A DNA stretch of 47,436 bases from Candidatus Omnitrophota bacterium (GTDB lineage: Bacteria > Omnitrophota > Gorgyraeia > Duberdicusellales > Duberdicusellaceae), in contig JAGGSQ010000011.1 of the NCBI GenBank assembly GCA_021159015.1, positions 1 to 47,436 on the forward strand, written 5' to 3'. This document shows, one piece after another, positions 31,523 to 47,436 of this stretch (within the stretch, counting starts at the first letter, position 1; each line of letters begins with the position of its first letter). The notes below the pieces were generated by a model. That model worked only from the letters and a program-made list of their open reading frames with translations. It was not told the DNA's origin and did no database searches. The translations under genes and the position numbers were made by a program.

Positions 31523-31543
31523 ATTCCTTTTATTGTTTATTAA

Positions 31544-31873
31544 ATGAAAAAGTTTATATTTATAATATCCTTTCTTTTTCTATTTAGTTTTTATTTTGTT
31601 TATCAGCAATCAAAGATATATATATTAGCCTACGAGATAAATTCTTATCAGAAAAAAATAGCTCTACTTCAGAAACAAGCAGAAGCTTTGCGCTGCCAAA
31701 TCCTTCCTTATATGACCTTGGCCTCATTAGATAGTAAAGTTAGAGATTTGCATTTGTCTTTTTCGGCTCTCCCTTACGTTAATATAAATGCAGACGCCGC
31801 TCATCCCTCTCGGAAGAGGTCGTTGCTAGCAAAGATATTTAACTTTAGTGTACGGGCCGAAGCAAAGCCTTAA
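31544..31873 (+). CDS. ftsL: FtsL-like division protein
   Basis: The 109-residue protein has one N-terminal membrane helix (about residues 4-20, FIFIISFLFLFSFYFVY) and a following amphipathic, probably coiled-coil stretch (YEINSYQKKIALLQKQAEALRCQI, residues 30-53). Its position between rsmH and ftsI is the standard place for FtsL, which joins FtsB and FtsQ in the divisome. FtsL diverges fast, so the call rests on topology and position more than on sequence identity. Confidence 0.7.
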   Translation: MKKFIFIISFLFLFSFYFVYQQSKIYILAYEINSYQKKIALLQKQAEALRCQILPYMTLASLDSKVRDLHLSFSALPYVNINADAAHPSRKRSLLAKIFNFSVRAEAKP

Positions 31874-31889
31874 TCTTTCTTACAATTGA

Positions 31890-33584
31890 ATGAGAACAAA
31901 AAAAGTTTACTTGCGGTTGAAGATTGTTTTTCTTTCCTTAACAGCAGTATTTACCATAATCATTCTGCGCCTTTTTTGGCTTGAAGTTGTTTTAAGCCCC
32001 AGACTCACACGTTTAGCCCATAAAGAACATTTGCGTTTGGTCCGGCTTCCGGCAAGGAGAGGCCGTATTCTGGATACTCACAGGAATATTCTAGTTGACG
32101 ACATCAGGCTTTATTCTCTTTACGCCGACCCTAAGATTATAGATAATAAAGATGAGGCAGCTAGTGCTATAGCAACAGTATTAGGCCAGGATCGCCGTAA
32201 AATCAGAAATCTTCTCACTAAAGATAAACGCTTTGTCTGGCTGGCAAGAAAGCTAAGCTTGAAGGATAAGAAGGCAATTGAGGAGTTAGGTATTAAGGGA
32301 ATTGGTTTCCGGGAAGAAGAAGAAAGATTTTATCCCCAAGGTAATCTTCTTGATAGTGTGATAGGCAGGACAGACATAGACAATAACGGGATAGATGGTT
32401 TAGAGCTATTTTATGAGCGTTACTTGCACGCCGAGAGTGGTCAGGCGGTATATTTAAGAGACAGTCGGGGAAACCTTCTGCCTCTTCCTAAGAAGCTGGT
32501 TCTTCCTAAAGATGGCTACGACTTAATTCTGACCGTTGATTCTTATATTCAATATTGGGTTGAGAAGTTCCTGCACCAGACGGTTGTAGAGTCTAGAGCC
32601 AAAGCAGGAGCTGTAGTTGTACTTAATCCTCAGAACGGAGAGATCGTAGCTATGGCCAATTTCGTTTCGCCTCTGGCCAAAGAATATTTAGAGACACAAA
32701 GGCGTAACCGGTGCGTATGTGATTTCTATGAACCGGGGTCGGTATTTAAAGTGGTTACACTTCTGGCAGCCTTAGAAAAGGATAAGGAAATATACAAAGA
32801 AGATTTTTTTTGTGAGAAGGGACAAATGAAAATTCCCGGAAGTATTCTTCATGATTGGCGTAGATTTGGAAAGCTTAGTTTCATTGATGTTTTTAAAAAC
32901 TCTAGTAATATTGGCGTGGCTAAGATTGCCAACAGAGTGGGCATTCCTTTTGTCTATAGTTATATTGAGAAGCTGGGGTTTGGCAGAAAGACAGGGATTG
33001 ATTTTCCGGGAGAGACAAGTGGGAGTCTGCGTCCCCTTTCTCAATGGTCAAAGACAGATTATTATATTGTTCCTATTGGCCAAAGTATAGGGGTAAGTTT
33101 GTTACAGTTAGCTGTAGCATTTGCCGCAGTAGCGAACGGCGGATATATAGTGAGGCCGCATTTGGTTAAAGAAATTGCTTCACGCGAGGGTGTGGCGATA
33201 AAGCAGTTTAGAATAGGAAGAAAAGGGCCGATTGCTTCTCGCTTTGCTGTGGATAAAGCACGGGAGATACTTCTTAGAGTGGTAGAAGAAGGGACAGGCC
33301 GGCGGGCTAAACTGGAAAAAGTAAAGGTTTGTGGAAAAACTGGTACCTCACAAAAAATCGATGTCCGCGGTGGTTATTCTCATAGAAACTTTTATGCTTC
33401 TTTTGTGGGGTTTTTCCCTTACCGCCACCCTCAATTTCTTATTGCTGTATTCATAGATGAACCACATACTTACCATTATGGAGGAATGATAGCTGCCCCC
33501 TTGTTTAAGAAGATTGCGGAAAAGATAGTAGCATATAAAAATCTAAGGAGTAAAGATAGTGAAACTGGGCGAAATACTGAATAA
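31890..33584 (+). CDS. ftsI: Septal peptidoglycan transpeptidase (PBP3/FtsI type)
   Basis: The 564-residue class B penicillin-binding protein has a short cytoplasmic tail and one membrane helix (about residues 12-33), then the PBP dimerisation domain (RRGRILDTHRNILVDD, 57-71) and the transpeptidase domain. The active-site motifs are intact: S284-V-F-K287 with the acylated Ser284 (EPGSVFK), S338-S339-N340 and K483-T484-G485 (KTGTS). It would cross-link septal peptidoglycan. Its last 26 nt overlap murE. No clear ribosome site precedes the ATG. Confidence 0.95.
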   Translation: MRTKKVYLRLKIVFLSLTAVFTIIILRLFWLEVVLSPRLTRLAHKEHLRLVRLPARRGRILDTHRNILVDDIRLYSLYADPKIIDNKDEAASAIATVLGQDRRKIRNLLTKDKRFVWLARKLSLKDKKAIEELGIKGIGFREEEERFYPQGNLLDSVIGRTDIDNNGIDGLELFYERYLHAESGQAVYLRDSRGNLLPLPKKLVLPKDGYDLILTVDSYIQYWVEKFLHQTVVESRAKAGAVVVLNPQNGEIVAMANFVSPLAKEYLETQRRNRCVCDFYEPGSVFKVVTLLAALEKDKEIYKEDFFCEKGQMKIPGSILHDWRRFGKLSFIDVFKNSSNIGVAKIANRVGIPFVYSYIEKLGFGRKTGIDFPGETSGSLRPLSQWSKTDYYIVPIGQSIGVSLLQLAVAFAAVANGGYIVRPHLVKEIASREGVAIKQFRIGRKGPIASRFAVDKAREILLRVVEEGTGRRAKLEKVKVCGKTGTSQKIDVRGGYSHRNFYASFVGFFPYRHPQFLIAVFIDEPHTYHYGGMIAAPLFKKIAEKIVAYKNLRSKDSETGRNTE

Positions 33585-35010
33585 TATTTCTTACCTCAGA
33601 CTAGAAGGCAAAACAGATAGACCAATTGATTTAATAAGCAGCGATTCACGCTTTCTTTCTTCTCAAACTCTTTTTATTGTGAAAGAGGGGCACAATTTTT
33701 CCGGTATTGATTTTATCAAAGACGTAAAACCTCACGCGGTAGCTTTTATAGCCGAAGGGAAGCACTGGCGCCGTCTAAAACAAGAATTGCAAGGCAGAGG
33801 GAAAACATTGATTATGGTTCCTGCGGCAGAAAAGGCTTACCGGCAGATTTCCTTTTACTTTCTAAAAAAAGCCTCAAGAGTAAAGACAGTCGGCATTACT
33901 GGTACTAATGGTAAAACTACTACTGCCTATTTGCTCTGGCATATACTCAATTATTCTCGCAGGAAGTCTTCCTTGATAAGCACGGTAAAGTATATTCTCC
34001 CTTTACACAAATTCAGCAGTTTTCTTACTACGCCTGATTTACTCACTTTTGCTAATTTGATGCTGAAAACTTATGAAGCTGGCGGCAGGTATCTAATCAG
34101 CGAGATATCTTCGCATGCTTTAGCCCAGGGGCGCATTCAAGGCATAGCGTTAGAGACCGCTGTATTTACCAATCTTACAGAGGATCATCTAGATTACCAC
34201 AAGAGTATGGAGGGTTATTTTCAGGCAAAAAGAAAAATTTTTGGTTATCTTCGGCCGGGAGGAACTGCCTGGCTTAATGCGGATGATATATTTTGTCAGC
34301 AAGTTTACAAAGAAATTAGACAGCCGCGTCTTAGCTTTGGCCTGGATAAGGGCGATTTACATACTCAAGCCTGGAGAGCTGATGCTAACGGCATAGAGAT
34401 GCTGATTGAATGGGAGAAGCGGCCATATTTTATTAGAAGTAAACTTAAGGGAAAGTTTAATATTTATAATATTTTAACGGCTTTAGGATGCGCTTTTAGT
34501 TTAGGCATAAAGCCAACCACTGCCCTAGAGGCAATAAAAACTTTTTCTCCTCCTCCGGGCAGAATGGAGGAAGTGAAGAAAGGGGTGTTCGTTGATTATG
34601 CTCATACGCCTGATGCTTTAGGAAAAGTACTAGTTTCTCTAAAACAAGATTTAAAGTATAAAAAGATTATATTGGTTTTTGGTTGCGGGGGAGAAAGAGA
34701 AAAAGAAAAAAGACCTCTTATGGGAAAGATCGCCTCTTTATATTCTGACTATTGTATAGTTACCAATGATAATCCTCGAGGTGAGAACCCTTTTGGTATT
34801 ATTAAACAGATTGTAAAGGGATGGAACAAAAAAAAGGGATGTTTATATGAAGTTATTCCGGAAAGAAAAGAGGCTATAAAAAAAGCCCTGAAGATAAAAA
34901 AAGATAAATTTACTGCTATATTGATTGCTGGCAAAGGACATGAATCTTATCAGATAATAGGCAGACAACGGATTAAATTCAGTGATAAACAAGTGGTGAG
35001 AGAATACTAA
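33559..35010 (+). CDS. murE: UDP-MurNAc-tripeptide synthetase (meso-DAP adding)
   Basis: The 483-residue Mur ligase adds the third residue to UDP-MurNAc-L-Ala-D-Glu. It shows the P-loop GTNGKTTT (115-122), the carbamylated-lysine segment YFQAKRK (Lys224) and the DNPR motif (404-407), the marker for meso-diaminopimelate rather than lysine as substrate. It therefore implies meso-DAP peptidoglycan. The GTG start at 33559 is supported by AAGGAG (33545-33550) and overlaps ftsI by 26 nt. Confidence 0.95.
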   Translation: MKLGEILNNISYLRLEGKTDRPIDLISSDSRFLSSQTLFIVKEGHNFSGIDFIKDVKPHAVAFIAEGKHWRRLKQELQGRGKTLIMVPAAEKAYRQISFYFLKKASRVKTVGITGTNGKTTTAYLLWHILNYSRRKSSLISTVKYILPLHKFSSFLTTPDLLTFANLMLKTYEAGGRYLISEISSHALAQGRIQGIALETAVFTNLTEDHLDYHKSMEGYFQAKRKIFGYLRPGGTAWLNADDIFCQQVYKEIRQPRLSFGLDKGDLHTQAWRADANGIEMLIEWEKRPYFIRSKLKGKFNIYNILTALGCAFSLGIKPTTALEAIKTFSPPPGRMEEVKKGVFVDYAHTPDALGKVLVSLKQDLKYKKIILVFGCGGEREKEKRPLMGKIASLYSDYCIVTNDNPRGENPFGIIKQIVKGWNKKKGCLYEVIPERKEAIKKALKIKKDKFTAILIAGKGHESYQIIGRQRIKFSDKQVVREY

Positions 35011-35034
35011 CTAGGGGAAAGAAACAATAGTAAG

Positions 35035-36396
35035 ATGCTAAGTATAAAAGAACTAAAACAAGCAGTAAGCTATAAAACTTTGTACAACTTTCCTCTTCCT
35101 GATTCTTTTAAGATAAAGGGTTTCTCTCTTGATAGCCGAACCCTGAAAGAAGGAGAAGCTTTTGTGGCCTTAAGGGGTAGGCGTTTTGATGGGCACGCTT
35201 TTATTGATTCGGTATGGAAAAAGGGCGCTTCTTTAGTAATTGTTGAGAAAATGCCGGAACATAGGACAGCTAAACCTGTTATGTTAGTAGAAGATACTCT
35301 AAAAGCATGGGGAGATATAGGTGCTTTTTTGCGCCGTAAATATAATCCTCTGGTAATAGGAGTTACCGGTTCAGTAGGTAAGACTACTATAAAAGAGATG
35401 ATTGCTTTTATCCTTAAGAAGAAGTTTCCTATTTGTTATGCACCTAAATCATTTAACAATTTCATAGGTCTTCCGCAGACACTGCTAAAGCTTAGGCCCA
35501 GACATAGAATTTGTATTTTAGAGTTAGGCACGAATCACAAAGGAGAAATTGGGCGTCTCTCTTCTATGGCCCATCCTGATATTGCCGTTATTAGTAATAT
35601 AGCTCATACGCATACTGCTTTTTTGGGAAACAGGAGAGGGGTGCTAAAAGAAAAGCTTTCTATTTTTACTTCTAATTCTGCTATGTTTGGTGTACTTAAT
35701 GGTGACGATGCTTTATTGAGGAAAGCAAGAGTGAAAAATAAGTGTATTTTCTATGGCCTGGGCAAAGATAATCACTTTTATGCCGAGTTCGTTAAGAGGG
35801 AGGAGGAAAATCTTTCTTTTCGCATAAATGGCAAATATATGCTGAAGCTCAATACATGGGGGATGTTTAATATTTATAATGCCTTAGCTGCTATTGCGGT
35901 AAGCTGTCTTTTGGGAATAAAAATTAAAGAGGCCGTAGAGAGCTTAGCAGAATTTTCTTTTCCTCCTTCCCGTTTTCAAATAAAAAAACGCGCCGGTTTA
36001 ATCTTGATAAATGATGCCTATAACTCCAACCCTTTAGCTTTGAGAAGTGCTTTAGAGTCGTTAAGTACTTTTCTGCCCCCGCGGAGGCGCATTGGCATAA
36101 TATCAGATATGCTGGAATTGGGAAAAAATTCCCTAAGACTTCATCTTGAATGCCGGCAAGCTTTAGAAGATGCTAAGTTTTCCTATCTCATTTTTCTAGG
36201 TACATATACAAAACATCTTGCGGCGGAACTTATTAGAAGGGGCTTTGATTCCCGAAAGATATATTTTGCCACTGATTACCGTCAGGCTTTTCGTATTCTG
36301 CGAGGGATGGTAAAAAAAGGAGATGTAATTTTTATTAAAGGATCTCATGCCTTTGAGTTGGAAAAAATAACGCACCATTTTATATTTTCTAAATGA
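35035..36396 (+). CDS. murF: UDP-MurNAc-tripeptide:D-Ala-D-Ala ligase
   Basis: The 453-residue Mur ligase has FSLDSRTLKEGEAFVALRG near the N terminus, the P-loop VTGSVGKTTIKEM (110-122), the SFNNFIGLPQTLL segment typical of MurF, LELGTNHKGEIG, and INDAYNSNPLALRSAL near the C-terminal domain. It attaches D-Ala-D-Ala, made by the ddl product in the same cluster, to the UDP-MurNAc-tripeptide. It follows murE by 24 nt. A 65-nt gap before mraY holds an internal promoter. Confidence 0.95.
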   Translation: MLSIKELKQAVSYKTLYNFPLPDSFKIKGFSLDSRTLKEGEAFVALRGRRFDGHAFIDSVWKKGASLVIVEKMPEHRTAKPVMLVEDTLKAWGDIGAFLRRKYNPLVIGVTGSVGKTTIKEMIAFILKKKFPICYAPKSFNNFIGLPQTLLKLRPRHRICILELGTNHKGEIGRLSSMAHPDIAVISNIAHTHTAFLGNRRGVLKEKLSIFTSNSAMFGVLNGDDALLRKARVKNKCIFYGLGKDNHFYAEFVKREEENLSFRINGKYMLKLNTWGMFNIYNALAAIAVSCLLGIKIKEAVESLAEFSFPPSRFQIKKRAGLILINDAYNSNPLALRSALESLSTFLPPRRRIGIISDMLELGKNSLRLHLECRQALEDAKFSYLIFLGTYTKHLAAELIRRGFDSRKIYFATDYRQAFRILRGMVKKGDVIFIKGSHAFELEKITHHFIFSK

Positions 36397-36426
36397 GCAT
36401 AAAAATACCTTTAGGCCACTTAGTAT

Positions 36427-36455
36427 TTGTCGCCTAGCTTAAGATTTAGTATAAT
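36427..36455 (+). promoter_or_regulatory. Internal dcw promoter before mraY, probably leaderless
   Basis: TTGTCG (36427-36432), a 17-nt spacer and a perfect TATAAT (36450-36455) end 6 nt before the mraY ATG at 36462. There is no ribosome site. It could drive the mraY-to-ftsA half separately from mraZ control. Confidence 0.55.
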
Positions 36456-36461
36456 TAAAAT

Positions 36462-37541
36462 ATGTTCTATCTTATTTTCTACCATTTTAAGGATTTCTTT
36501 CATATTTTTAACCTTTTCAAATATACTACGTTCCGTAGCGGTGGCGCTTTCATTACCGCATTTTTGTTAGTATTTATCTTTGAGAAGAGTTTTATTGAGA
36601 AATTGATTAAGTTGAAAGCAGCTGAACATGTGGATATGTATGGACATGTGAGGTTAGAAAGTATCTATCGTTCCAAAGAAGGAACCCCTACCATGGGTGG
36701 GATCTTGATATTGTTAGGTGTTATTATTTCTATTTTTCTTTGGTGCAGAATCAATAGGTTTGTTTGGTTAGTAACAGCTACCGCTTTTCTTTTTGGTATT
36801 TTGGGAATAGTAGATGATTATTTAAAAATTAGACGTCAAAAAGGATTAAGAAGATGGCCCAAGCTTGTTATTCAAATGATACTAGGAGTTATTGTCGGCA
36901 GTATTATATTGTATTTTCGTCTTTCCTCTCCCGAAGTACATTTTCCTTTCTTCAAAAATTTAGTAGTAAATTTAGGATGGTTTTATATTTTCTGGGTCAT
37001 GTTGATTCTGGTATCGTCTTCTAATGCCGTCAATTTCACTGATGGTCTGGATGGTTTAGCAATTGGCAGTATAGTGATGGTGGCTTTGGTATTTGGTGTT
37101 TTTAGTTATATTTCTGCTAATATTAAATTTAGCCAGTATTTATTCCTGCCTTATGTGAAAGGCGCAGAAGAATTAACAGTTATTTCCGCCAGCCTTATGG
37201 GAGCGGGATTGGGATTTTTGTGGTTTAATGCCCAGCCGGCAGAATTGTTTATGGGAGATGTAGGTTCTTTGAGCCTGGGTGCGATAATAGGGTTAGAGGC
37301 TATTTTAGTAAAGGAAGAATTTATTCTCCTTATTGCCGGAGGTATATTTGTAATTGAAGCATTGTCGGTACTGTTGCAGATCGTAGCCTTGCGAGTTTTT
37401 AGGCGACGTATTTTTAAAGCCGCCCCTCTGCATCATCATTTCCAGATGTTGGGATGGCACAATACAAAAATTACAATCCGTTTTTGGATTGTTTCTTCTT
37501 TATTTGTAACTTTGGCGTTACTTACCCTTAAACTTAGATAG
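36462..37541 (+). CDS. mraY: Phospho-MurNAc-pentapeptide translocase
   Basis: The 359-residue polytopic membrane enzyme transfers phospho-MurNAc-pentapeptide to undecaprenyl phosphate, making lipid I. Family motifs are complete: TPTMGG (75-80), GIVDDYLKIRR (115-125, with the Asp pair), SSNAVNFTDGLDGLA (186-200), FMGDVGSLSLG, and the APLHHHFQ cytoplasmic loop. The N terminus (MFYLIFYHFKDFFHIFNLFKY) matches the usual start of MraY, so the ATG at 36462 is right even though no Shine-Dalgarno sequence is present. Confidence 0.96.
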   Translation: MFYLIFYHFKDFFHIFNLFKYTTFRSGGAFITAFLLVFIFEKSFIEKLIKLKAAEHVDMYGHVRLESIYRSKEGTPTMGGILILLGVIISIFLWCRINRFVWLVTATAFLFGILGIVDDYLKIRRQKGLRRWPKLVIQMILGVIVGSIILYFRLSSPEVHFPFFKNLVVNLGWFYIFWVMLILVSSSNAVNFTDGLDGLAIGSIVMVALVFGVFSYISANIKFSQYLFLPYVKGAEELTVISASLMGAGLGFLWFNAQPAELFMGDVGSLSLGAIIGLEAILVKEEFILLIAGGIFVIEALSVLLQIVALRVFRRRIFKAAPLHHHFQMLGWHNTKITIRFWIVSSLFVTLALLTLKLR

Positions 37542-37542
37542 A

Positions 37543-38796
37543 GTGGAAAAGAAACTAGTTTTGCAGGTTAGAGACAACTTTGAAAGAGTAAGGATTGTCG
37601 GTGTATTGGGGTGGGGTTTAAGTGCTCAGGGTGCGGCATATCTGGCAAGAAAAAAGCTGAATAAGAAGATAATGATAAGTACTACTCAGGAGGAGTTGTC
37701 AACTTCTGAAGAGAAATTAGCTCGCTCCCTGGAGGCGGAAGTTGAACTGGGAGGGCATAGGGTAGATTTTCTTAAGAAGGCCGATATATGGATTGTGAGC
37801 CCGGGCGTAAAACCCCATTCAGAAGCGTTAGAGATATTAAGAAAGATTAAGATTCCCTGGGTAGGAGAGATTGAGTTTGCTTCCTGGTTTTGTCCTGCTC
37901 CTATTATTGCTGTTACCGGTACTAATGGCAAAACGACTACCGTGGCCAAAATTTCTCATATGTTTAATATTGCGGGGAGAAAACATTTTCTTTTAGGCAA
38001 TATGGGTAGTTCTTTTGCAAAAGCTATTGCAGACATTTCTCCTTCAGACTGGGTCGTCCTGGAAGTAAGCTCTTTCCAATTAAATTACACTTTTACTTTT
38101 AAACCGTTTATAGCCTGTCTGCTCAATTTTTCCCCTAATCATCTTGACTGGCATAGTAGCATAGAGGATTATTTTTTTGCCAAAAGTAAGATATTTATTA
38201 ACCAAAGTGAGAGTGATTATGCTCTTTTTAGTTCACCTCTTGCTGACAAGTTAGAAGATATATATTCTCGATGCCATATATTAGAGGAGGGTTCGGATAC
38301 TTCTGATTTTGTGAGAATTGTGGGAGAAGCTCTTGGTTTTTCTTCTTCCGTAATCCAGAAGGCCATATCTACATTCAAAAATTTACCGCACCGTTTAGAA
38401 TTTGTAAGAAATGTTAAAGGGGTTAATTTTATTAATGATTCAAAATCTACCACGCCAGCCTCTACTGTTTGGGCCCTGCAAAAGATAGAAGGCAGGGTAA
38501 TTCTTATTGCTGGCGGCCAGGATAAAGGCCTTGACTATTCTTGTCTGAATCCTTATCTCAAGAAGGTAAAAAAGGTCTTTCTTATTGGTTCCGCACGCCA
38601 GAAAATAGCTGGTTCCCTTTCAGAGACCGTAGATTGGGAATATAGGGATAGCCTGGAAGAAGCGGTTGACTCTGCTTATAAGATAGCGGGAAGAGGTGAG
38701 AATGTTTTGCTTTCTCCTATGTGTGCAAGTTTTGATAGTTTTTCTAATTTTGAAGAGAGGGGAAATGTTTTTAAGAGAAAAGTATATCAATTATAA
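37543..38796 (+). CDS. murD: UDP-MurNAc-L-Ala:D-Glu ligase
   Basis: The 417-residue Mur ligase adds D-Glu to UDP-MurNAc-L-Ala. Visible are the N-terminal VLGWGLSAQGAA nucleotide-sugar binding loop (21-32), VSPGVKPHSE, the P-loop VTGTNGKTTTVAK (124-136), LEVSSFQL, NFSPNHLDWH and the C-terminal LLSPMCASFDSFSNFEERG typical of MurD. It starts with GTG 1 nt after the mraY stop; no in-frame ATG lies near, and a longer frame is blocked. Its end overlaps ftsW by 32 nt. Confidence 0.95.
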   Translation: MEKKLVLQVRDNFERVRIVGVLGWGLSAQGAAYLARKKLNKKIMISTTQEELSTSEEKLARSLEAEVELGGHRVDFLKKADIWIVSPGVKPHSEALEILRKIKIPWVGEIEFASWFCPAPIIAVTGTNGKTTTVAKISHMFNIAGRKHFLLGNMGSSFAKAIADISPSDWVVLEVSSFQLNYTFTFKPFIACLLNFSPNHLDWHSSIEDYFFAKSKIFINQSESDYALFSSPLADKLEDIYSRCHILEEGSDTSDFVRIVGEALGFSSSVIQKAISTFKNLPHRLEFVRNVKGVNFINDSKSTTPASTVWALQKIEGRVILIAGGQDKGLDYSCLNPYLKKVKKVFLIGSARQKIAGSLSETVDWEYRDSLEEAVDSAYKIAGRGENVLLSPMCASFDSFSNFEERGNVFKRKVYQL

Positions 38797-39895
38797 ATTT
38801 AAAGCGGTTAATATCCGCCGTTCTATTCTGGGAATGGTTATTTTCTTAACCTTGTTTGGGCTTCTAATGGTTTATGACGTATCTTCTATTTATGCGTGGC
38901 AGAAATATGCTGATGCTATGTATTTTCTTAAGCGGCAGATAGTTTCCGTGGTGATAGGACTGATGTTTATGTTTGTTGCTATGGCCGTTGATTTGGATTA
39001 TTTAAAGCGTCATAGTCGTCATCTGGTAATCTTAGGCGTAATACTTCTTTTGTGTACCTTTATTCCTTATCTAAGCCGAAGTGCCGGAGGAGCGAGAAGA
39101 TGGATTCACGTGGGAATGTTTAACTTTCAGCCGTCGGAATTGGTGAAGGTATTTTTCATTATCTATTGTGCTGACTATTTCTCGCGTAAGAAATCACTCC
39201 GTTATAATTTTAGAAAAGGAGTTCTGCCTTTGTTATTAGTAACAGCGGCTCTCTCTTTTTTAATACTTATGGAGCCAGACTTAGGCAATGCTTTTTTTAT
39301 TAGCTTCTTAGCCCTTATTTTGATTTTTGTTTGGGGTGCTTCGAGGAAAAAATTGACCTCTCTCTTTGCTGTCTTATTCTTTCTTACCCTGATTTTAGTA
39401 CTAATCAGTCCTTACCGCCGTGCCCGTTTGGCCGTTTATTTTAATCCCTGGTTGGACGCAAAAGGAAAGGGATTTCAAATTGTACAATCTCAGATTGCCA
39501 TTGGGTCAGGGGGTATTTTAGGGGCGGGGCTGGGAAAAGGCGAGCAGAAGCTTTTCTTTTTACCTGCTGCTCACACCGACTTTATCTTTTCTATTATTGC
39601 CGAAGAGCTGGGGCTGGGAGGGGCATTAGTAATCCTGTTGTCTTTTTTCTGGATTTTTCTCCAAAGTTTCCGTCTCTTGCGGGAGTTAGAGGAGGGCTTT
39701 AGTTTTTATCTTGGTTTAGGAGCCGTACTTACTATTATCTTAGAAGTGTTAATCAACATTACTGTGGCTTTGGGAATTTTCCCCGCTAAAGGCCTGCCGC
39801 TTCCTTTTATCAGCTATGGAGGTACAGCGGTAGTGATAAATTTTGTTCTTTTAGGTTTATTTTTTAATGCCAGTAACAGAATTGTTGCGTCTTAA
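38765..39895 (+). CDS. ftsW: Septal peptidoglycan polymerase FtsW
   Basis: From the ATG at 38765 the product is 376 residues; this start is preferred over 38696 because GAGAGGGG lies just before it and the extra N-terminal residues of the longer frame have no counterpart in the family. About ten membrane helices of the SEDS family are seen. Family segments include RSAGGARRWIHVGMFNFQPSELVKV, PDLGNAFF, GAGLGKGEQKLFFLPAAHTDFIF and FPAKGLPLPFISYGGTAV. It polymerises lipid II into glycan strands together with FtsI. It overlaps murD by 32 nt. Confidence 0.95.
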   Translation: MFLREKYINYKFKAVNIRRSILGMVIFLTLFGLLMVYDVSSIYAWQKYADAMYFLKRQIVSVVIGLMFMFVAMAVDLDYLKRHSRHLVILGVILLLCTFIPYLSRSAGGARRWIHVGMFNFQPSELVKVFFIIYCADYFSRKKSLRYNFRKGVLPLLLVTAALSFLILMEPDLGNAFFISFLALILIFVWGASRKKLTSLFAVLFFLTLILVLISPYRRARLAVYFNPWLDAKGKGFQIVQSQIAIGSGGILGAGLGKGEQKLFFLPAAHTDFIFSIIAEELGLGGALVILLSFFWIFLQSFRLLRELEEGFSFYLGLGAVLTIILEVLINITVALGIFPAKGLPLPFISYGGTAVVINFVLLGLFFNASNRIVAS

Positions 39896-39897
39896 TT

Positions 39898-40947
39898 ATG
39901 AATGTGGTTTTAGGAATAGATTTTAGCGGCGGACATCTTTATCCCGCTTTAACCTTTGCTAAAGCTCTAAAACAAAGCAGGCCCCAGCTTAATGTACTTT
40001 TTACGGGTGCAAATAGAAGTCAGGAAGAGGTGATAAAGGGGGCCGGATTTATAAGCATTGGTTTTAAAGTGCAGTTTCGGCAGATTCTTTTAGAAAGTTT
40101 CTTGCGTTTCTTTGAAGCTATATATATATTGCTGTGCTTTTCTCCTTCCCGAGTTTATGGATTTGGAGGAAGAAATTCTTTCTTTCTCATTCTTATAGCC
40201 TCTTTTTTTAGGCCTACTTATATCTATGAACCCAATGTAGTATTAGGAAAAGCTAATAAGATATTAATACATTTTTGCCGGCGGACATTTCGAGGCATAG
40301 GAAACACAGAGAAGACAGCAGCTAAAGAGATTTATGTAGGTGTTCCTATTCGTCAGTCAATAATTGCGAAGGCTAATATTTCACCTTCACAAATTCTCCG
40401 CCGCATAGACTTACAAACAGATAGGAAATATTTTACTGTCTTTATTTTTGGAGGTTCAAAAGGTTCATTGGTAATAAATAACACCGTAACAGAAGCACTA
40501 AAGTTTCTCCAGAAGAACGCTTTTCAATTTATACATATTACGGGCCGGGAAGGGAAAGAGAAAGTGGAGGCTATTTATAGAGAGTATGGATTCTTTTGCT
40601 TTTGCCGTGCTTTTTTTGATGATATGGGTATTCTTTATCAGGCCTCTCATCTGGTAGTATGTAGAGGAGGGGCGAGCAGTTTAGCTGAGATAAACTTTTT
40701 CTCTCGTCCCGCCATAGTTGTCCCCTATCCGTATGCTTCGGGACATCAAAAAGACAACGCTGAGTTTTTAGCCCGGAAAGGTTGTATATTAGTTAAAGAG
40801 GAGAAAGATTTTACCCCTCTTTCTCTTGCCACATTGTTGATGAGAGTAAGAAATGATGAGAAATTGAGAGAAAGATTTATGATTAGCCATGAGAAGGTGA
40901 GAATATGGACAAGAGCCGAAGAGTTTGCTTCCTTATTATGGCCATAA
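39898..40947 (+). CDS. murG: MurG-type lipid II GlcNAc transferase, divergent motifs
   Basis: The 349-residue GT-B protein sits in the normal MurG position after ftsW. It keeps SGGHLYPAL (residues 10-18, His13), FIFGGSKGSLVINN and VVCRGGASSLAEINFFSRPAIVVPYPYASGHQKDNAEFL. Two motifs differ from the consensus: the first glycine loop reads DFSGGH where GGTGGH is usual, and the second reads YEPN (110-113) where HEQN is usual. The reaction would be addition of GlcNAc to lipid I. Position makes MurG the best call, and the changes look like lineage divergence, since the acceptor-side and UDP-sugar loops are otherwise present. It overlaps the next gene by 43 nt. Confidence 0.88.
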   Translation: MNVVLGIDFSGGHLYPALTFAKALKQSRPQLNVLFTGANRSQEEVIKGAGFISIGFKVQFRQILLESFLRFFEAIYILLCFSPSRVYGFGGRNSFFLILIASFFRPTYIYEPNVVLGKANKILIHFCRRTFRGIGNTEKTAAKEIYVGVPIRQSIIAKANISPSQILRRIDLQTDRKYFTVFIFGGSKGSLVINNTVTEALKFLQKNAFQFIHITGREGKEKVEAIYREYGFFCFCRAFFDDMGILYQASHLVVCRGGASSLAEINFFSRPAIVVPYPYASGHQKDNAEFLARKGCILVKEEKDFTPLSLATLLMRVRNDEKLRERFMISHEKVRIWTRAEEFASLLWP

Positions 40948-41756
40948 CAGTTAGTACGGTTGTAACTAGCCCTGCCCGCTTGCTTTTGGGTAAAAGTAAG
41001 GAGTGGCAGGAAAAGAGAAGCTATCACTTTTTTATTTACTATTATGCCGGTTGCAGCCAGAGTTTTCTTGGCCGCCTGACGGAAGCCAGTGAAAGTTATT
41101 ATCGCACCATTACTCAACAGCTCCATTTTTATCGCCACGATCCCTGGGTGTGGGAAAAGAGGGCTAAAATATATGTGTATCGCAATAAGGAAGAATATCT
41201 GGAGAAAACTAAACAGCCTTCCTGGTCGGCAGGCTACGCCATACCTGTAAAAAAAGAAATATATACTTATGCTGGTTCTTTTGGCATATTTAAAGGTGTC
41301 CTGGCGCACGAAATGACCCATCTCATTCTTCACGAGTATATAGGATTTGGGCATACCATTCCTCTCTGGTTGGATGAAGGAGTAGCAATGTATATTCAAT
41401 ATAAAACAATGGGTTTACTTGAGAGAATTGTTGCAGAATGTATTAAACCACTTCTGCATAGTAAAGACTATATACCGTTGGAAGAACTGCTTTCTATTGC
41501 CATATCTGATTTAGACAAGAAGCAGCCGCTTCCTACGGGTGAGTCGAGCCATTATAGCTATGTAGATAAATTTTATTTAGAATCTTTGAGCGTCGTATAT
41601 TTTCTTCTTAAGCAGTATAGCAATTATAATTTTGTAAATCTTTGTCGAGATTTGAGAGATGGTAGAGAATTCTCATCTGCTTTTAGCCGTCACTATTATA
41701 CTATCAGGAATTTGCATTATTTTGAGAAGCGTTGGAAGGAATTTTATTCCTCATAA
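40905..41756 (+). CDS. Exported HExxH zinc metallopeptidase in the dcw cluster
   Basis: The 283-residue protein has a signal-like N terminus (residues 1-25). Its zinc-protease motif is LAHEMTHLILHEY (133-145; His135, Glu136, His139) with a downstream WLDEG whose Glu158 would be the third zinc ligand, the gluzincin pattern of peptidase MA-like families. The region between residues 40 and 130 (KIYVYRNKEEYLE...WSAGYAIPVKKEIYTYAG) also fits that family. It is likely periplasmic, but its substrate is unknown. Such a gene is not part of the normal dcw set, yet it overlaps murG by 43 nt and lies 36 nt before murC, so it is cotranscribed. ATG 40938 is an alternative start. Confidence 0.8.
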   Translation: MDKSRRVCFLIMAITVSTVVTSPARLLLGKSKEWQEKRSYHFFIYYYAGCSQSFLGRLTEASESYYRTITQQLHFYRHDPWVWEKRAKIYVYRNKEEYLEKTKQPSWSAGYAIPVKKEIYTYAGSFGIFKGVLAHEMTHLILHEYIGFGHTIPLWLDEGVAMYIQYKTMGLLERIVAECIKPLLHSKDYIPLEELLSIAISDLDKKQPLPTGESSHYSYVDKFYLESLSVVYFLLKQYSNYNFVNLCRDLRDGREFSSAFSRHYYTIRNLHYFEKRWKEFYSS

Positions 41757-41792
41757 TGAGAGGCTTTTTATTCACAGAAATATATTAAAACG

Positions 41793-43217
41793 ATGCAGCA
41801 TAAGATTGCTTTTTGCCGCCAATATTTAAAGAAGGCGAAAAATATTTATCTAGTTGGTATAGGGGGAATAGGTATGAGCGGTCTGGCTTATCTTTTAAAA
41901 GATAAGGGATATAAAGTCAGCGGTTCTGATATTGTCTTTAGCCCCCTCCTGGCCCATCTGGAAAAGAAAGGCATCGCGGTATATTTAGGTCATAAATCTC
42001 AGCGGGTAAAGGGAAAAGACTTACTTTGTTATTCTTCCGCTATAAAGGAAGATAATCCTGAGCTTAAGAGAGCAAGAAAATTGGGCATTCCCCTGGTATC
42101 GCGAGGACTGCTTCTGGCTTGTTTAGCTCAGGAGGAAAAAGTTATAGCTATAGCAGGCAGCCATGGCAAAACTACTACTACAGCTTTGACCGGGTTTTTG
42201 TTAAGGAAAATGGGCTTAAGATGTTCGACTTTCTTAGGAGGAATGTTACAAGGACATACGGTTTCTGCAGAGTGGGGAAGGGAAGTCTTTGTCATTGAGA
42301 CGGATGAAAGTGACGGGAGTTTCAATTTTATTCGCCCCTTCTATTCTCTTATAACTAATATTGATAGGGAGCATTTGAATTTCTATCAGAATAATTGGGG
42401 CAAGCTTAAGGGGGCTTTTAGAAGGTTTGCAGAGCAAACTACAGGAAAGGTTATTGGCTGTGCCGATGATGAGGCTGTATTTGATATATTGTCTCGGCTC
42501 CCCAGTGGCAGGAGCGTTAGTTACGGAATAAGAAAAGGTGATTTTCGGGCCTGTCACATAACTTTTTCTTCTTTTTCTACGCGTTTTGATCTGTGTTTCT
42601 ATGATAAGAAACTTCTGCGATGGGAGATTCCTTTGGCGGGAAGACACAATGTTTTAAATAGTTTGGCTGCTATTGCTGCTATCGTGAGCTTTCGTATGGA
42701 AGGAAAACTTGCCGGAAGAGAGAAGGAAATTGAAGTTATTTGTCTGCGTTTAAAAGAAGATATTAAGTATTTTCCCGGTGTGAAGAGGAGACTGGAAATA
42801 TTAGGCAAAAAAAAGGGTGTTATTTTTATCAGTGACTATGCGCATCATCCTTCAGAAATAAAGGCAGTGATTAGAACGGTAAAATCTATTAAGTCATCAC
42901 GATTAGTAGTTGTATTTCAACCTCATCGGTCCTCACGCTTAAAAAGTTTAATTTCTGAATTTGCTGATGCTTTTTATGGCAGCGATTTGCTTATTGTAAC
43001 TGATATTTATTTAGCCTCTGAGAAACCTGAGAAAAATATAAATGCGGCGCTCCTTATAGAAAATTTGCGTCACCCTTCTCCTAAAAATATAATTTATCTT
43101 CCTCAGAATAAACTTATGAGTCATCTTAGCTCTTTCTTTAACCAAGGAGATATTGTTTTGGCTTTAGGAGCAGGCAATATTGACAGTATAATCAGGTCTG
43201 TTTATAGACAATTTTAA
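41793..43217 (+). CDS. murC: UDP-MurNAc:L-alanine ligase
   Basis: The 474-residue Mur ligase makes UDP-MurNAc-L-Ala, the first peptide addition in peptidoglycan synthesis. It has the N-terminal loop VGIGGIGMSGLA (21-32), SGSDI, YSSAI, the P-loop GSHGKTTTTAL (122-132), ETDESDGSF, the NIDREHLNFY motif and ISDYAHHPSEI (about 349-359). A TATATT box 6 nt before the ATG hints at a leaderless start, but no -35 is evident. It is immediately followed by murB (1-nt gap). Confidence 0.96.
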   Translation: MQHKIAFCRQYLKKAKNIYLVGIGGIGMSGLAYLLKDKGYKVSGSDIVFSPLLAHLEKKGIAVYLGHKSQRVKGKDLLCYSSAIKEDNPELKRARKLGIPLVSRGLLLACLAQEEKVIAIAGSHGKTTTTALTGFLLRKMGLRCSTFLGGMLQGHTVSAEWGREVFVIETDESDGSFNFIRPFYSLITNIDREHLNFYQNNWGKLKGAFRRFAEQTTGKVIGCADDEAVFDILSRLPSGRSVSYGIRKGDFRACHITFSSFSTRFDLCFYDKKLLRWEIPLAGRHNVLNSLAAIAAIVSFRMEGKLAGREKEIEVICLRLKEDIKYFPGVKRRLEILGKKKGVIFISDYAHHPSEIKAVIRTVKSIKSSRLVVVFQPHRSSRLKSLISEFADAFYGSDLLIVTDIYLASEKPEKNINAALLIENLRHPSPKNIIYLPQNKLMSHLSSFFNQGDIVLALGAGNIDSIIRSVYRQF

Positions 43218-43218
43218 T

Positions 43219-44118
43219 ATGCTGAGAGAGATAAAGAAATACACCGAGAGGTTAGGCTGGTGGCAGGCTGCGGCGGTGATGCGAGATTTTACTACTATAA
43301 AAATAGGCGGGAGAGTAAAACTTTTTTTCCCTCGCGGACTAGAGGAATTAACAAAAACTATTAGTTTATTTAATAAAGAGGGCTTAAAGTATCGTATTTT
43401 GGGTAATGGCTCTAACCTGCTGGTAAGCGATAGAGGTATTAAAGACATAATCATCAAGTTAAAAGGAGCTGATTTCGAATATATAAGAAAAGAGAAAAAC
43501 AATCTTGTTGCTGTAGGCAGTGGTTTAAGCTTGCAGAAGCTGTTGCGCTTTTGCCAGGAAGAGTCTTTAGGCGGTTTAGAGTTTTTGGTAGGGGTTCCCG
43601 CTACTTTAGGAGGGGCTATCAAAAATAATGCCGGCGCCTTAGGAAAAGAAATTATGGATTTTGTCACTTCTTTAACTGTTCTAAAAAAAAGTGGTAAGCT
43701 GGTAAAATTAGAAAGTAAGCATGTAAGATATTCTTATCGTTATCTGCAGTTGAAAAAATCAGATATTATTGTAGGTGCGGTACTGAGGCTGAGAAAGACG
43801 AGGCGGAAATATATACGAAAGAGGTTAGATTTTAATCGTGCCTATCGCCGGCGTACGCAGGAGATAAGATTTGCTTCAGCGGGATGTGTCTTTGCCAATC
43901 CTTCTCTTTCACTGCCGGCAGGATTATTAATTGAAGCTGCGGGGCTTAAAGGATTCAGGAAAAATAAGGCTGCTGTATCTTGCCGTCATGCAAATTTTAT
44001 TGTAAATCTGGGAGGAGCTTCTTTTAAAGATGTATTCTATCTGATAAAATACATAGAGAAAAATATTAGGGACACTTTTGGTATAACTCTAAAGAGAGAA
44101 ATAGAAATATGGTCATAG
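43219..44118 (+). CDS. murB: UDP-N-acetylenolpyruvoylglucosamine reductase
   Basis: The 299-residue flavoprotein reduces UDP-GlcNAc-enolpyruvate to UDP-MurNAc with NADPH. It shows TTIKIGGRVKLFFP (25-38), the FAD-binding LGNGSNLLVSDRG (61-73), GGLEFLVGVPATLGGAIKNNAGA (118-140), RYSYRYL (170-176) and FASAGCVFANP (218-228). The proton-donor position is Cys223, as in the GCVF subgroup, where E. coli has Ser. The C-terminal LKREIEIW holds the expected Glu. It starts 1 nt after murC, and its end overlaps ddl by 10 nt. Confidence 0.95.
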   Translation: MLREIKKYTERLGWWQAAAVMRDFTTIKIGGRVKLFFPRGLEELTKTISLFNKEGLKYRILGNGSNLLVSDRGIKDIIIKLKGADFEYIRKEKNNLVAVGSGLSLQKLLRFCQEESLGGLEFLVGVPATLGGAIKNNAGALGKEIMDFVTSLTVLKKSGKLVKLESKHVRYSYRYLQLKKSDIIVGAVLRLRKTRRKYIRKRLDFNRAYRRRTQEIRFASAGCVFANPSLSLPAGLLIEAAGLKGFRKNKAAVSCRHANFIVNLGGASFKDVFYLIKYIEKNIRDTFGITLKREIEIWS

Positions 44119-45038
44119 ATAGAAAGACGGTGAAGGTTGTGGTTCTAAAAGGGGGTATTTCTCCGGAAAGAGAGATATCTCTTCTTTCTGGTACTAATGT
44201 GGAGAGAGCTCTGGCAGAGAAAGGATATGGGGTATCAGGATTTGATGTAACTTCACCTCAAGCGGATAAAATAATAAACTTTATTAAAGAAGAAGGTGGG
44301 GAGGTAGTTTTTATTGCTTTGCATGGTGAGTTTGGAGAGGATGGTCAGCTTCAAGAGATATTAGAAGAGAATAATATTGTCTTTACAGGATCTTCGTCGG
44401 AAGCTTCCTTCCTCTCTATGGATAAGTTGAGAAGCAAGCGCGTATTTGAAACAGCCGGATTAAAAGTTCCTCCCACGTGGAGTGAAGCAGAGGCATCAGA
44501 GATTGACGAAAGTCACTTTCCTCTTATAGTTAAGCCGCATTTTGCTGGTTCCAGTATTGGCGTAACCAGAGCCAAAAGCAGGGAGTCTTTAAAAGAGGCG
44601 ATACACAAAGCTAAAGATATTTCTTCTCAAGTTATTATTGAGAAATTTATAGAAGGTCGAGAAATTAGTGTAGGTATATTGGGAAAAGAAGTTTTGCCGG
44701 TGGTAGAAATAGTCCCTCAGAATGACTATTACGATTTTAGTTGTAAATATGAAGAAGGAATGAGTAGGTTTGTCGTGCCGGCTACTTTACCTTCTGGTGT
44801 TTACAAAAAAGCCCAATCTATTGCTTGGCAAAGTTTTACTGCTTTGGGATGTAGTCATTTTGGACGTGTAGATATGATAGTAGATGCTGAAGAGGATATA
44901 TATGTATTGGAAGTTAATTCTATCCCCGGCTTAACCGCCCATAGTCTTTTGCCATTGGCGGCAAAGAGCGCAGGGATTAGTTTTGGCGATTTGTGCGAAA
45001 AAATAGTAGAATTGGCTCTAGGGAATGAGATTAAGTAA
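44109..45038 (+). CDS. ddl: D-alanine--D-alanine ligase
   Basis: The 309-residue ATP-grasp enzyme joins two D-Ala for MurF. It has KGGISPEREISLLSG (14-28), VFIALHGEFGEDGQLQ, FTGSSSEASFLSMDK, PLIVKPHFAGSSIGV, VIIEKFIEGREISVGIL and the metal-binding end DMIVDAEEDIYVLEVNSIPGLT. The length is typical for Ddl of the DdlB kind found in dcw clusters. The ATG overlaps the murB stop by 10 nt, and its end overlaps ftsQ by 14 nt. Confidence 0.95.
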   Translation: MVIDRKTVKVVVLKGGISPEREISLLSGTNVERALAEKGYGVSGFDVTSPQADKIINFIKEEGGEVVFIALHGEFGEDGQLQEILEENNIVFTGSSSEASFLSMDKLRSKRVFETAGLKVPPTWSEAEASEIDESHFPLIVKPHFAGSSIGVTRAKSRESLKEAIHKAKDISSQVIIEKFIEGREISVGILGKEVLPVVEIVPQNDYYDFSCKYEEGMSRFVVPATLPSGVYKKAQSIAWQSFTALGCSHFGRVDMIVDAEEDIYVLEVNSIPGLTAHSLLPLAAKSAGISFGDLCEKIVELALGNEIK

Positions 45039-45780
45039 AAAACAAATATATCGCCGGCGGTTTAAAAAGGTAATCCTAATCTTTTTTTTGTTTCTCATCT
45101 TCTATTTATTTTTAATCAAAGCCAAAAAAATAATCATAAAGTCTGGCATATTTACTTTAAGAAAAGTTTATGCTAATGCTTCCTTAGAAGACCTGGTCTT
45201 CTTGAAAAATAAATTTTTAGGAAAGTCAATCTTTCTTGCTGATCTTTCTTATATGGCCAGATATATTTCTGCTCACCATCCAGAATTTGAAAAAGTAAAA
45301 GTAAAGAGACGTTTTCCTGATAGAGTAATTATTGAAATTGTCCCTAAGAGACCATATGCACAATGCAAGATAGGCTCATTCTATTATTTGATAGATAGAG
45401 AAGGAGTAATTATTAGCCAGCCGCATTCTTTGCCTTACGGAGATAAAATTATTATTTATGCTGGTTACAAAAGGCCGGAAGAGGTAAAAATAGGAAAAAG
45501 GCTTAATCTGGACAACTTTAAGCATATAAAGGAATTAATTGATTATTTGAAAGCAGATGAGTTTTTTTCTCACCATTCTGTAGAATCAATACATGGTTAT
45601 ACTCTAAATGATATTTGGTTTGATTTGGATGGAATTAAGGTTAAAATAGGAAATTCAGACTATAGGAGGCGTTTGAGGATTCTTAAGCAGATTATTATTC
45701 CCCGTTTTCGTACTGACTGGCAAAAGATTAGTTATATAGATTTGAGATTTAAAGACCCTGTAGTAGGATACCGGCGATGA
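45025..45780 (+). CDS. ftsQ: Division protein FtsQ/DivIB-like
   Basis: The 251-residue protein has a basic cytoplasmic start (RLSKKQIYRRRFKK), one membrane helix (about residues 17-33), and a POTRA-like domain (GIFTLRKVYANASLEDLVFLKNKFLGKSIFLADL). The beta domain follows (FPDRVIIEIVPKRPYAQCKIGSFYYLIDREGVII), which is the pattern of FtsQ/DivIB. It bridges early and late division proteins and binds FtsL/FtsB. Position between ddl and ftsA is standard. The sequence is divergent, but topology and context make the call firm. It overlaps ftsA by 4 nt. Confidence 0.88.
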   Translation: MRLSKKQIYRRRFKKVILIFFLFLIFYLFLIKAKKIIIKSGIFTLRKVYANASLEDLVFLKNKFLGKSIFLADLSYMARYISAHHPEFEKVKVKRRFPDRVIIEIVPKRPYAQCKIGSFYYLIDREGVIISQPHSLPYGDKIIIYAGYKRPEEVKIGKRLNLDNFKHIKELIDYLKADEFFSHHSVESIHGYTLNDIWFDLDGIKVKIGNSDYRRRLRILKQIIIPRFRTDWQKISYIDLRFKDPVVGYRR

Positions 45781-46955
45781 AGGATGTGAATTGTGCCTTA
45801 GAGATAAACAGTAGTTCTTATAGCATAGTAATTGTGGAGACAGGGCGAAAGGTATTGGCAGTTAAAAGAGCAAGCTTTAATTTTGATATTAGCAGTTTAA
45901 GTCTTGTGGACGAGGTTCTGCTTAACTATTTGCGCCAAATGATGAAAGAATTGAAGCAGGAGTATGAGTTCAGAATAAAAAATTTGAACGTATGTTTGTC
46001 CTCTTATCACGTTGATATTGTTCCCGCTTCAGCAGAAATTATTCTTCATCCTTACCATCAGCGGGACGTAAGAAAAAAAGACATTGAAAATCTAATAGAG
46101 CAATCACGGCTCTTGCGGATTGATTGGGACAGGAGCGTTCTCCATTCCCTGCCTCTGGAGTTCTATTTAGACGACAGAAGATTTCTGGAAGCTCCCATAG
46201 GTGTTTACGGGCGAAAGTTCAGAACTAAGAGTATTTTTTGTATAGTTAATAGAAATATTATGGAGGAGATTGAGACTCTAGCTGATAGGTTATCTTTAGA
46301 GTTAGGAAAAGTGGTATTTTATCCTTTAGCTCTTATGTCTATTTTTGTTCTTCCAGATTCAGAAGGTGATTTTCTTCTTGTCCGCATGAGACGTTATCGT
46401 ACTGATATGGCGGTTTTTATAGAGAAGTCGTTGGTTTATGCTGGCTATATCCCCATAGGAGGTGAGTATATAGATAGAGAGCTAGCGGAAGGACTAGGTA
46501 TTCCTATGTCTTTGGCAGAAGAGATAAAAATAGAATATGGTGCTCTAACTGCAGAGGACCTGGAAGACGGGAGGGAAGTAATTGTTAAAAAAGTTTCTTC
46601 TTACCGGAAAATAAAGCGTTCTCGGCTTAATCAGATTTTGCTGGCTTCTTTTCGTAATATTTTAGGGAGTATTAAATCTAATATTCCTGATGAATTTCGC
46701 AGCCGTCTCTCTAAGGTAATTTTTGTCGGAAGTAGTATTTCTTTGAAAGGTTTAGCTAATGTGGTTGAGAATGAACTTGAGCTTTCTTGGCAGCCTGTTT
46801 CTTTGTTAAGAGAAAATTATCAGAAACTGCCTCCTTCTTTTTGGGGTGCAATCGGGAGTTTTTATTTTAATGATTCAGATTTCAACCGTCAAAAAATGGC
46901 GAGTGGTTTAAATTTTTGGCAGAAGATTGTGAATGTGTGGGATAATTATTTTTAA
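45777..46955 (+). CDS. ftsA: FtsA-like division protein with degenerate ATP-binding motifs
   Basis: The 392-residue protein sits in the FtsA place after ftsQ (4-nt overlap). It keeps the FtsA-specific 1C region (about 80-155; [10 protein letters not shown]...[14 protein letters not shown]...[11 protein letters not shown]), the [31 protein letters not shown] helix region (225-255), and an amphipathic C-terminal helix [15 protein letters not shown] like the FtsA membrane-targeting sequence. The actin-fold nucleotide motifs are degraded. Phosphate 1 reads LEINSSS (8-14, usual DIGTS). Phosphate 2 reads RMRRYRTD (203-210, usual DIGGGTTD). The adenosine motif reads FVGSS (317-321, usual TGGG). It may be a membrane tether that no longer binds ATP. 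PilM is a less likely alternative. Confidence 0.8.
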
Positions 46956-46957
46956 TT

Positions 46958-47436
46958 ATGATTGAAAAGATTGCTACACCAGAGGTAGAGAAATTAATTG
47001 ATGCTAAGAGGTGGAATGAAATTAAAGAAGCTCTTAGCCATCTTTATCCCGAGGATATTTCGGCAATTATTTCTGAGCTGGGTTCTGCTTCTTCTAAATG
47101 GCTGGTTTTTCGCCTTACCCCTGCAGACAAGAATATAGCTGTTTTTGAGAATCTCTCCGCAGAAGAGCAAAAAAAGATTATAAAGAGCCTTTCCGATGAC
47201 AATCTGCGTCGCCTTCTGAATGAAATGGCACCAGATGAGAGGACGGAATTATTTGAAGATATGCCTTCCGAGATAGTCAAAAAGATGATTCAGTACCTTA
47301 ATCCGGAGGAAAGAAAAATAGCTATTGCTCTTTTAGGTTATCCAGAAGATTCTGTGGGGCGCCTAGTTACACCTGATTTTGTCCAGCTCTATGAAAATAT
47401 GAGCGTTAAAGAAGCCCTGGAGCATATTAGAAAGGT
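46958..47436 (+). CDS. mgtE: Magnesium transporter MgtE, 3' end outside window
   Basis: An open frame from ATG 46958 runs off the window (159 complete codons seen). It carries the helical MgtE N-terminal superhelix, with repeated alpha segments such as [37 protein letters not shown] and [19 protein letters not shown]. The junction [33 protein letters not shown] then enters the first CBS domain. The transmembrane part lies beyond the window. The N domain and CBS pair sense Mg2+ and gate the channel. It is 2 nt after the ftsA-like gene, with no ribosome site, so it is probably coupled to the dcw transcript. It occupies the place where ftsZ normally follows ftsA. Confidence 0.9.

Follow-up and report, generated by a model that had tools for sequence, protein, structure and literature searches.

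A divergent FtsA with eroded nucleotide loops in an Omnitrophota lineage in which FtsZ was not found

Results

The ftsA gene and its surroundings

The stretch of DNA analysed here (hereafter the window) comprises the 47,436 nucleotides of contig JAGGSQ010000011.1 from a Candidatus Omnitrophota bacterium of the order Duberdicusellales. It holds an intact dcw cluster that runs …ddl-ftsQ-ftsA and has ftsA as its last gene, directly after ftsQ. The features are as follows.

30202..45038, plus strand: dcw cluster, beginning with mraZ, rsmH, an ftsL/divIC-like gene, ftsI, murE, murF, mraY, murD and ftsW
30202..45038, plus strand: the later part of the same cluster, with murG, a peptidase gene, murC, murB and ddl, before ftsQ
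45025..45780, plus strand: ftsQ, overlapping the start of ftsA by 4 bases (Pfam FtsQ_DivIB_C, 1.6e-6)
45777..46955, plus strand: ftsA, 392 aa, with degenerate nucleotide loops (Pfam, NCBIfam, Foldseek)
45798..45818, plus strand: phosphate-1 loop, residues 8-14, LEINSSS (E. coli LEIGTAK, 13-19)
46059..46220, plus strand: core of the 1C (SHS2) domain, residues 95-148 (Pfam PF02491, pLDDT ~90)
46383..46406, plus strand: phosphate-2 loop, residues 203-210, RMRRYRTD (E. coli DIGGGTMD, 210-217)
46722..46736, plus strand: adenosine loop, residues 316-320, FVGSS (E. coli LTGGA, within LTGGAAQIEG, 334-343)
46914..46952, plus strand: C-terminal amphipathic membrane helix, predicted, residues 380-392, ending Tyr-Phe
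46958..47434, plus strand: mgtE, cut by the contig end, at the expected place of ftsZ (Pfam MgtE_N, 1.7e-25)

Within the cluster, mraZ, rsmH, ftsI, murE, murF, mraY, ftsW and the peptidase gene were named from Pfam matches, the ftsL-like gene from a weak match to DivIC (0.0018), and murD, murG, murC, murB and ddl from their sequences. The peptidase, encoded between murG and murC, is a Peptidase_MA_2 protein (40905-41756, plus strand). MreB-MreC, FtsK and a separate PilM-like protein of 595 aa (L003) are encoded in the same genome.

We compared 111 FtsA loci, a set that includes two controls from outside the Omnitrophota (L075 and E. coli), and found ftsQ upstream of ftsA in 97. An ftsZ gene downstream of ftsA was seen at no Omnitrophota locus, only in the two controls (a script call for L075, annotated in E. 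coli). The genes that follow ftsA are varied (yggS at 13 loci, proC at 8, a response regulator at 8, pilT at 4, and others), and mgtE recurs there in a second genus (L005/L070). In some other bacteria yggS and proC often lie close to ftsZ, so their position after ftsA may be a scar of ftsZ excision. Masking of ftsZ by undetermined bases was rejected, as the loci inspected had only a few short gaps next to ftsA and no long stretches of N.

In family f2 of the order a conserved protein of at least ~490 aa, with the N-terminal pattern [NH]-x-S-x-Y-F-x-E-H-P and no Pfam match, is encoded directly after ftsA at most loci and is a candidate FtsA partner; three examples are given below.

L011, 1735-3225, plus strand: f2 protein encoded after ftsA
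L033, 2657-4126, plus strand: f2 protein encoded after ftsA
L028, 2-1498, minus strand: f2 protein encoded after ftsA

Identity of the protein

The 392-aa product matched the Pfam families FtsA (5.1e-14; 53.2 bits against a cut-off of 31.8) and SHS2_FTSA (PF02491; 4.6e-10; 40.2 bits against 25.4). With the NCBIfam equivalog TIGR01174 it scored 118.7 bits (3.1e-34), below the cut-off of 175.85, which marks it, as judged by profile scores, as a divergent member of FtsA. An AlphaFold2 model built from seven sequences (pLDDT 83, pTM 0.81) has the FtsA fold, with 1C in place of 1B, and when it was searched with Foldseek ranks 1-19 were all FtsA chains (best E 5e-27), with query TM values of 0.67-0.80 for the top FtsA structures. 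Two related actin-like proteins were considered and ruled out: MreB, since the product reached 17.6 bits with MreB_Mbl (cut-off 27) and the genome has a separate MreB, and PilM, which ranked below every FtsA structure in Foldseek and does not suit the dcw context. The remaining PF14450 matches in the genome proved to be MreB and the PilM-like protein, and a further FtsA was thereby rejected. An earlier note on this DNA had proposed an FtsA homologue that kept its 1C region and its C-terminal amphipathic helix, and the Pfam matches, the fold and the place in the dcw cluster all agree with that identification.

The 1C region is recovered by the SHS2_FTSA match, and the C-terminal helix by a conserved sequence together with a modelled helix at residues 380-391, where model confidence is low (pLDDT ~55). 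The hydrophobic moment of the last 13 residues is above that of 99% of shuffles of the same residues, and a terminal YF is found in 102 of 106 Omnitrophota FtsAs. The protein is thus FtsA by descent, without the functional mark of intact actin-type nucleotide loops.

Nucleotide loops

Aligned with E. coli FtsA, the window protein has E-I-N for D/E-I-G, R-M-R for D-I-G and V-G-S for T-G-G, which in E. coli numbering corresponds to G16 to N, D210 to R, G212 to R and G337 to S. Phosphate-2 has lost its acid and glycines (now R203, R205 and R206), phosphate-1 its glycine (now N11) and the adenosine motif its second glycine (now S319). The loss is partial: phosphate-1 keeps E9, phosphate-2 its closing T209-D210 and the adenosine motif G318. 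The degeneracy of all three motifs had been noted from the sequence beforehand, with exact positions for the two phosphate loops (8-14 and 203-210) and the adenosine stretch set one residue too far, at 317-321 instead of 316-320.

In the AlphaFold2 model the phosphate-2 stretch lies at the turn of hairpin E199-204/E209-215, and the three motif stretches fall at the hairpin turns and the strand-helix turn typical of the fold; the loops are thus, as modelled, altered and not displaced. Structure prediction had been suggested as a check for intact phosphate loops in a shifted position, and none were seen. A frameshift or a hidden canonical loop was also ruled out, since the other reading frames of ftsA contain stops and no canonical motif was found in them.

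The S. aureus FtsA of the AMPPNP and ATP crystal structures (3wqt, 3wqu) has only DIGEDVTQ at phosphate-2, and loss of the GG and T-x-D elements alone therefore does not abolish binding; by analogy, many other Omnitrophota FtsAs (e.g. with DIGADLTE) may still be able to bind ATP. E. coli FtsA(E14R) retains 61% of ATPase activity (PMC10213515). The losses in the window FtsA exceed those of both the S. aureus protein and E14R, and erosion in its order is likewise more advanced; the window FtsA may have lost ATP binding, as the earlier note suggested.

Loop erosion across the order and selection on ftsA

Alignment across Omnitrophota FtsAs, a further check suggested by the earlier note, showed motif loss common to the order, with eroded nucleotide loops in all 31 FtsAs sampled from it. 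At the D210 position 4 of these 31 have D, whilst 55 of 58 other full-length Omnitrophota FtsAs have D or E; G is kept at the G212 position in 13/31 versus 49/58, and at the G337 position in 3/31 versus 42/58. By these counts the erosion in the order is more than chance. In relatives of the same family phosphate-1 reads D-S-S, phosphate-2 reads N-[IL]-G-[RK]-x-K-L-E and the adenosine loop is GGG or GGA, so that, on alignment, no other FtsA of this family is as eroded as the window protein. Loops such as IDIDSDK, DIAYDKTF and GRLNIKEG occur in the order's second family (f2), where the adenosine loop follows a recurring pattern, G-R-L-N-x-K-E-G.

Within the order, the region with the lowest conservation (0.20 identity, with region borders that are approximations here and in the figures that follow) is 194-232 in E. 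coli numbers, which holds phosphate-2; in other Omnitrophota this region is among the best conserved (0.28). Identity within the order is 0.44 for the membrane helix, 0.36 for 1C and 0.34 for 2B. For the nearest pairs of ftsA genes we obtained dN/dS values of 0.16-0.29 (L071/L072), 0.19-0.26 (L011/L017) and ~0.09 (L018/L026), values which argue that the gene is under purifying selection and not decaying.

Absence of FtsZ and retention of FtsA

The FtsZ profile TIGR00065 gave no match in the window's genome, a draft in 70 contigs that is 93% complete and in which the contig ends 480 bases past ftsA. There was likewise no TIGR00065 match in 41 of the 42 genomes of the order and in 381 of the 384 Omnitrophota genomes sampled (249 of which reach 90% completeness or more), and no match to the tubulin family PF00091 in 382 of the 384; both profiles matched in 13 of 14 control genomes. 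As far as profile searches can tell, FtsZ is absent from the window's genome and from essentially the whole phylum. The earlier note had foreseen a changed divisome, and rightly so, but had framed it around recruitment of FtsZ by FtsA; with FtsZ itself absent, the question is not whether the window FtsA can recruit it.

Three genomes call for comment. The FtsZ of G306 (L037 3-893, minus strand) is archaeal-type, is nearest to Methanocaldococcus FtsZ, lies at a contig edge and is probably contamination; contaminants of this kind may lie behind the FtsZ that others have reported from the phylum. The match of G395 to TIGR00065 was marginal and was not repeated by PF00091. G013 and G306 also carry FtsZ/tubulin-like paralogues (L008 1492-2775, minus strand; L039 999-2261, plus strand), of which the G013 copy is basic and similar to that of G306; in the L008 protein the N-terminal tail is rich in lysine and the signature reads GAGGGTGSG, and its gene does not adjoin dcw genes.

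FtsA scored above the TIGR01174 cut-off in 223 of the 384 genomes, and divergent FtsAs such as that of the window fall among the genomes below it. TIGR01174 matches at any score occur in 383/384 genomes; these were rejected as a count of FtsA, as MreB also matches (~1e-17), and our FtsA counts use only the 223 over the cut-off and those checked against MreB. A family profile found FtsA in 37 of the 42 genomes of the order (38 matches, that of G004 being MreB).

Loss of the 2B subdomain and the FtsA tree

Seventeen FtsAs of families f9, f12, f32, f37, f45 and f56 (e.g. L082, L088 and L119) are only 333-358 aa long, and in them E. coli residues ~240-300, most of 2B, are wholly or partly missing. 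Several 2B-less Omnitrophota FtsAs also have eroded nucleotide loops. A further FtsA without 2B (L120, f15) is cut by a contig end. At the other extreme of length, L056 (1132-2688, plus strand) encodes an FtsA of 518 aa with ~100 extra residues.

In a tree built by a quick method with SH-aLRT support only, from an alignment that excluded the 2B and motif columns, L131 (a 745-aa match) and three incomplete FtsAs, FtsA sequences group by family almost without exception (37 changes for 37 groups) and those of the order form one clade, which points to vertical inheritance of FtsA within the phylum. The state of 2B changes at least four times on this tree, with f12, f37 and f45 grouping together. 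Deletion of 2B abolishes FtsZ binding in E. coli, according to earlier work cited in PMC4281207.

2B is present in the window FtsA. Arg occupies the R300 position, which we take to be part of the FtsZ contact in E. coli FtsA, in three sequences from outside the phylum (E. coli, L075 and the S. aureus structure); it does so in none of the order's 31 FtsAs and in 3 of the 58 other Omnitrophota FtsAs. Erosion of FtsA after the loss of FtsZ has followed two routes, through the ATP pocket in this order or through deletion of 2B.

Discussion

A proposed nucleotide-independent scaffold

We think it reasonably probable that the window FtsA is the FtsA orthologue of a lineage that divides without FtsZ and that it serves as a nucleotide-independent membrane scaffold. 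This explanation builds on the orthology, FtsZ absence, loop erosion, selection and domain retention documented above from sequences, and it would add a membrane location, partners and a lack of ATP binding. The C-terminal helix would hold FtsA on the inner membrane, whilst 1C and the adjoining 1A cleft would gather, or signal to, FtsQ, FtsW and FtsI at the septum; FtsA would then be a static scaffold rather than an ATP-cycling actin, and it could do without the nucleotide cycling by which E. coli FtsA contributes to Z-ring assembly and membrane remodelling (PMC10213515). The surface formed by 1C and the 1A cleft is where FtsN and late division proteins bind in E. coli. FtsN is bound by the 1A-1C cleft in E. 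coli and Vibrio FtsA (PMC7613929) and 1C is needed for recruiting FtsQ and FtsN (PMC4281207), so FtsA could reach the synthases without FtsZ, and this reach may be what is retained in Omnitrophota FtsA. Apart from ftsZ the dcw cluster lacks nothing and includes ftsI, ftsW and ftsQ, so the septal wall is probably made in the usual way. MreB and FtsK would be candidates for placing the septum without FtsZ, because chlamydiae have been proposed to use both.

The remaining pocket residues (E9, T209, D210 and G318) and the GGG or GGA adenosine loops kept by close relatives speak against a scaffold of this kind. The conservation of 2B in the order despite the loss of FtsZ suggests, moreover, that 2B probably binds something beyond the scaffold model. 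More tentatively, we suggest that the phylum as a whole may divide with FtsA and without FtsZ, using FtsAs of at least two kinds, one 2B-less and another, that of this order, a nucleotide-free membrane scaffold of septal wall synthesis, possibly with a new 2B partner.

Other explanations

The pocket could instead have been remodelled, such that FtsA binds nucleotide in an unusual way, polymerises and replaces FtsZ as the septal filament, an explanation we regard as unlikely. The recurring f2 adenosine loop is what would be expected of a rebuilt site, the whole gene is under purifying selection, 2B, which makes longitudinal contacts (PMC7613929), is conserved in the order, and E. coli FtsA together with FtsN makes curved double filaments (PMC7613929). 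The phosphate-2 loop of the window protein, however, has arginines and no glycine, in the region least conserved in the order, and 2B, a part of the filament contact, has been deleted elsewhere in those at least four changes.

It is more doubtful still that FtsA has moved out of division to another envelope function, as PilM-like proteins act in pili: among structural relatives PilM comes second to FtsA, and FtsZ is gone, but throughout the phylum ftsA stays beside ftsQ as the dcw cluster closes, the genome has its own PilM-like protein, and the fold and SHS2 domain fit FtsA best. That FtsA is a relic drifting to loss after FtsZ disappeared would account for its large divergence and for the repeated losses of 2B and loops, yet it is largely refuted, and very improbable, in view of dN/dS well below 1, intact frames, the near-constant terminal YF and the presence of FtsA in most genomes. 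An artefact, with sequencing errors in the motifs or ftsZ missed in an incomplete draft whose contig stops soon after ftsA, has next to no probability, given that eroded loops recur in all 31 FtsAs of the order with no hidden canonical frame and that FtsZ is missing from almost all 384 genomes, most of them highly complete, where FtsA is found.

Comparison with known systems

The FtsAs of E. coli and Vibrio (TIGR01174; 7q6d, 7q6f, 7q6i) share with the window protein the fold, 1C, the C-terminal helix and the place after ftsQ; they bind ATP, that of E. coli hydrolyses it, and they anchor FtsZ, whereas here the loops are eroded and FtsZ is absent. Deinococcus radiodurans FtsA is likewise functional without measurable ATPase activity but, unlike what we propose, interacts and polymerises with ATP and acts on FtsZ (PMC4281207). 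Chlamydiota and Planctomycetota are also FtsZ-less members of the PVC group and in part keep peptidoglycan synthases, MreB or FtsK (PMC5147048, PMC7029139); both phyla have also lost FtsA (PMC8178401), whereas the Omnitrophota retain it.

The absence of FtsZ in Omnitrophica has already been published. A 2016 survey found FtsZ in one of three Omnitrophica and left the others open (PMC5147048), and a 2021 map of FtsZ, SepF and FtsA gives Omnitrophica as FtsZ-less and, by implication, FtsA-bearing, with nothing on the later fate of FtsA and no motif, domain or selection analysis of it in the available part of that paper (PMC8178401). In a 2025 survey Omnitrophota count among the phyla whose dcw cluster is highly conserved (PMC12283558), and a large study of Omnitrophota genomes mentions neither ftsZ, ftsA nor the divisome in its main text (PMC10066038). 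In the open-access papers searched we found no account of the fate or erosion of FtsA in Omnitrophota. Our results bear on the conflict between the FtsZ question left open in 2016 and the conserved dcw count of 2025.

FtsA is usually explained as the anchor of FtsZ. In the Omnitrophota it outlives FtsZ phylum-wide, and some lineages lose 2B or the ATP site whilst almost none lose the membrane anchor. The phylum thus offers a natural experiment in which the FtsZ-related role of FtsA is separated from its signalling to wall-building enzymes, showing which part is indispensable. If the more tentative view of a phylum that divides with FtsA and without FtsZ is true, FtsA, and not FtsZ, would be the irreducible cytoplasmic core of the Omnitrophota septum.
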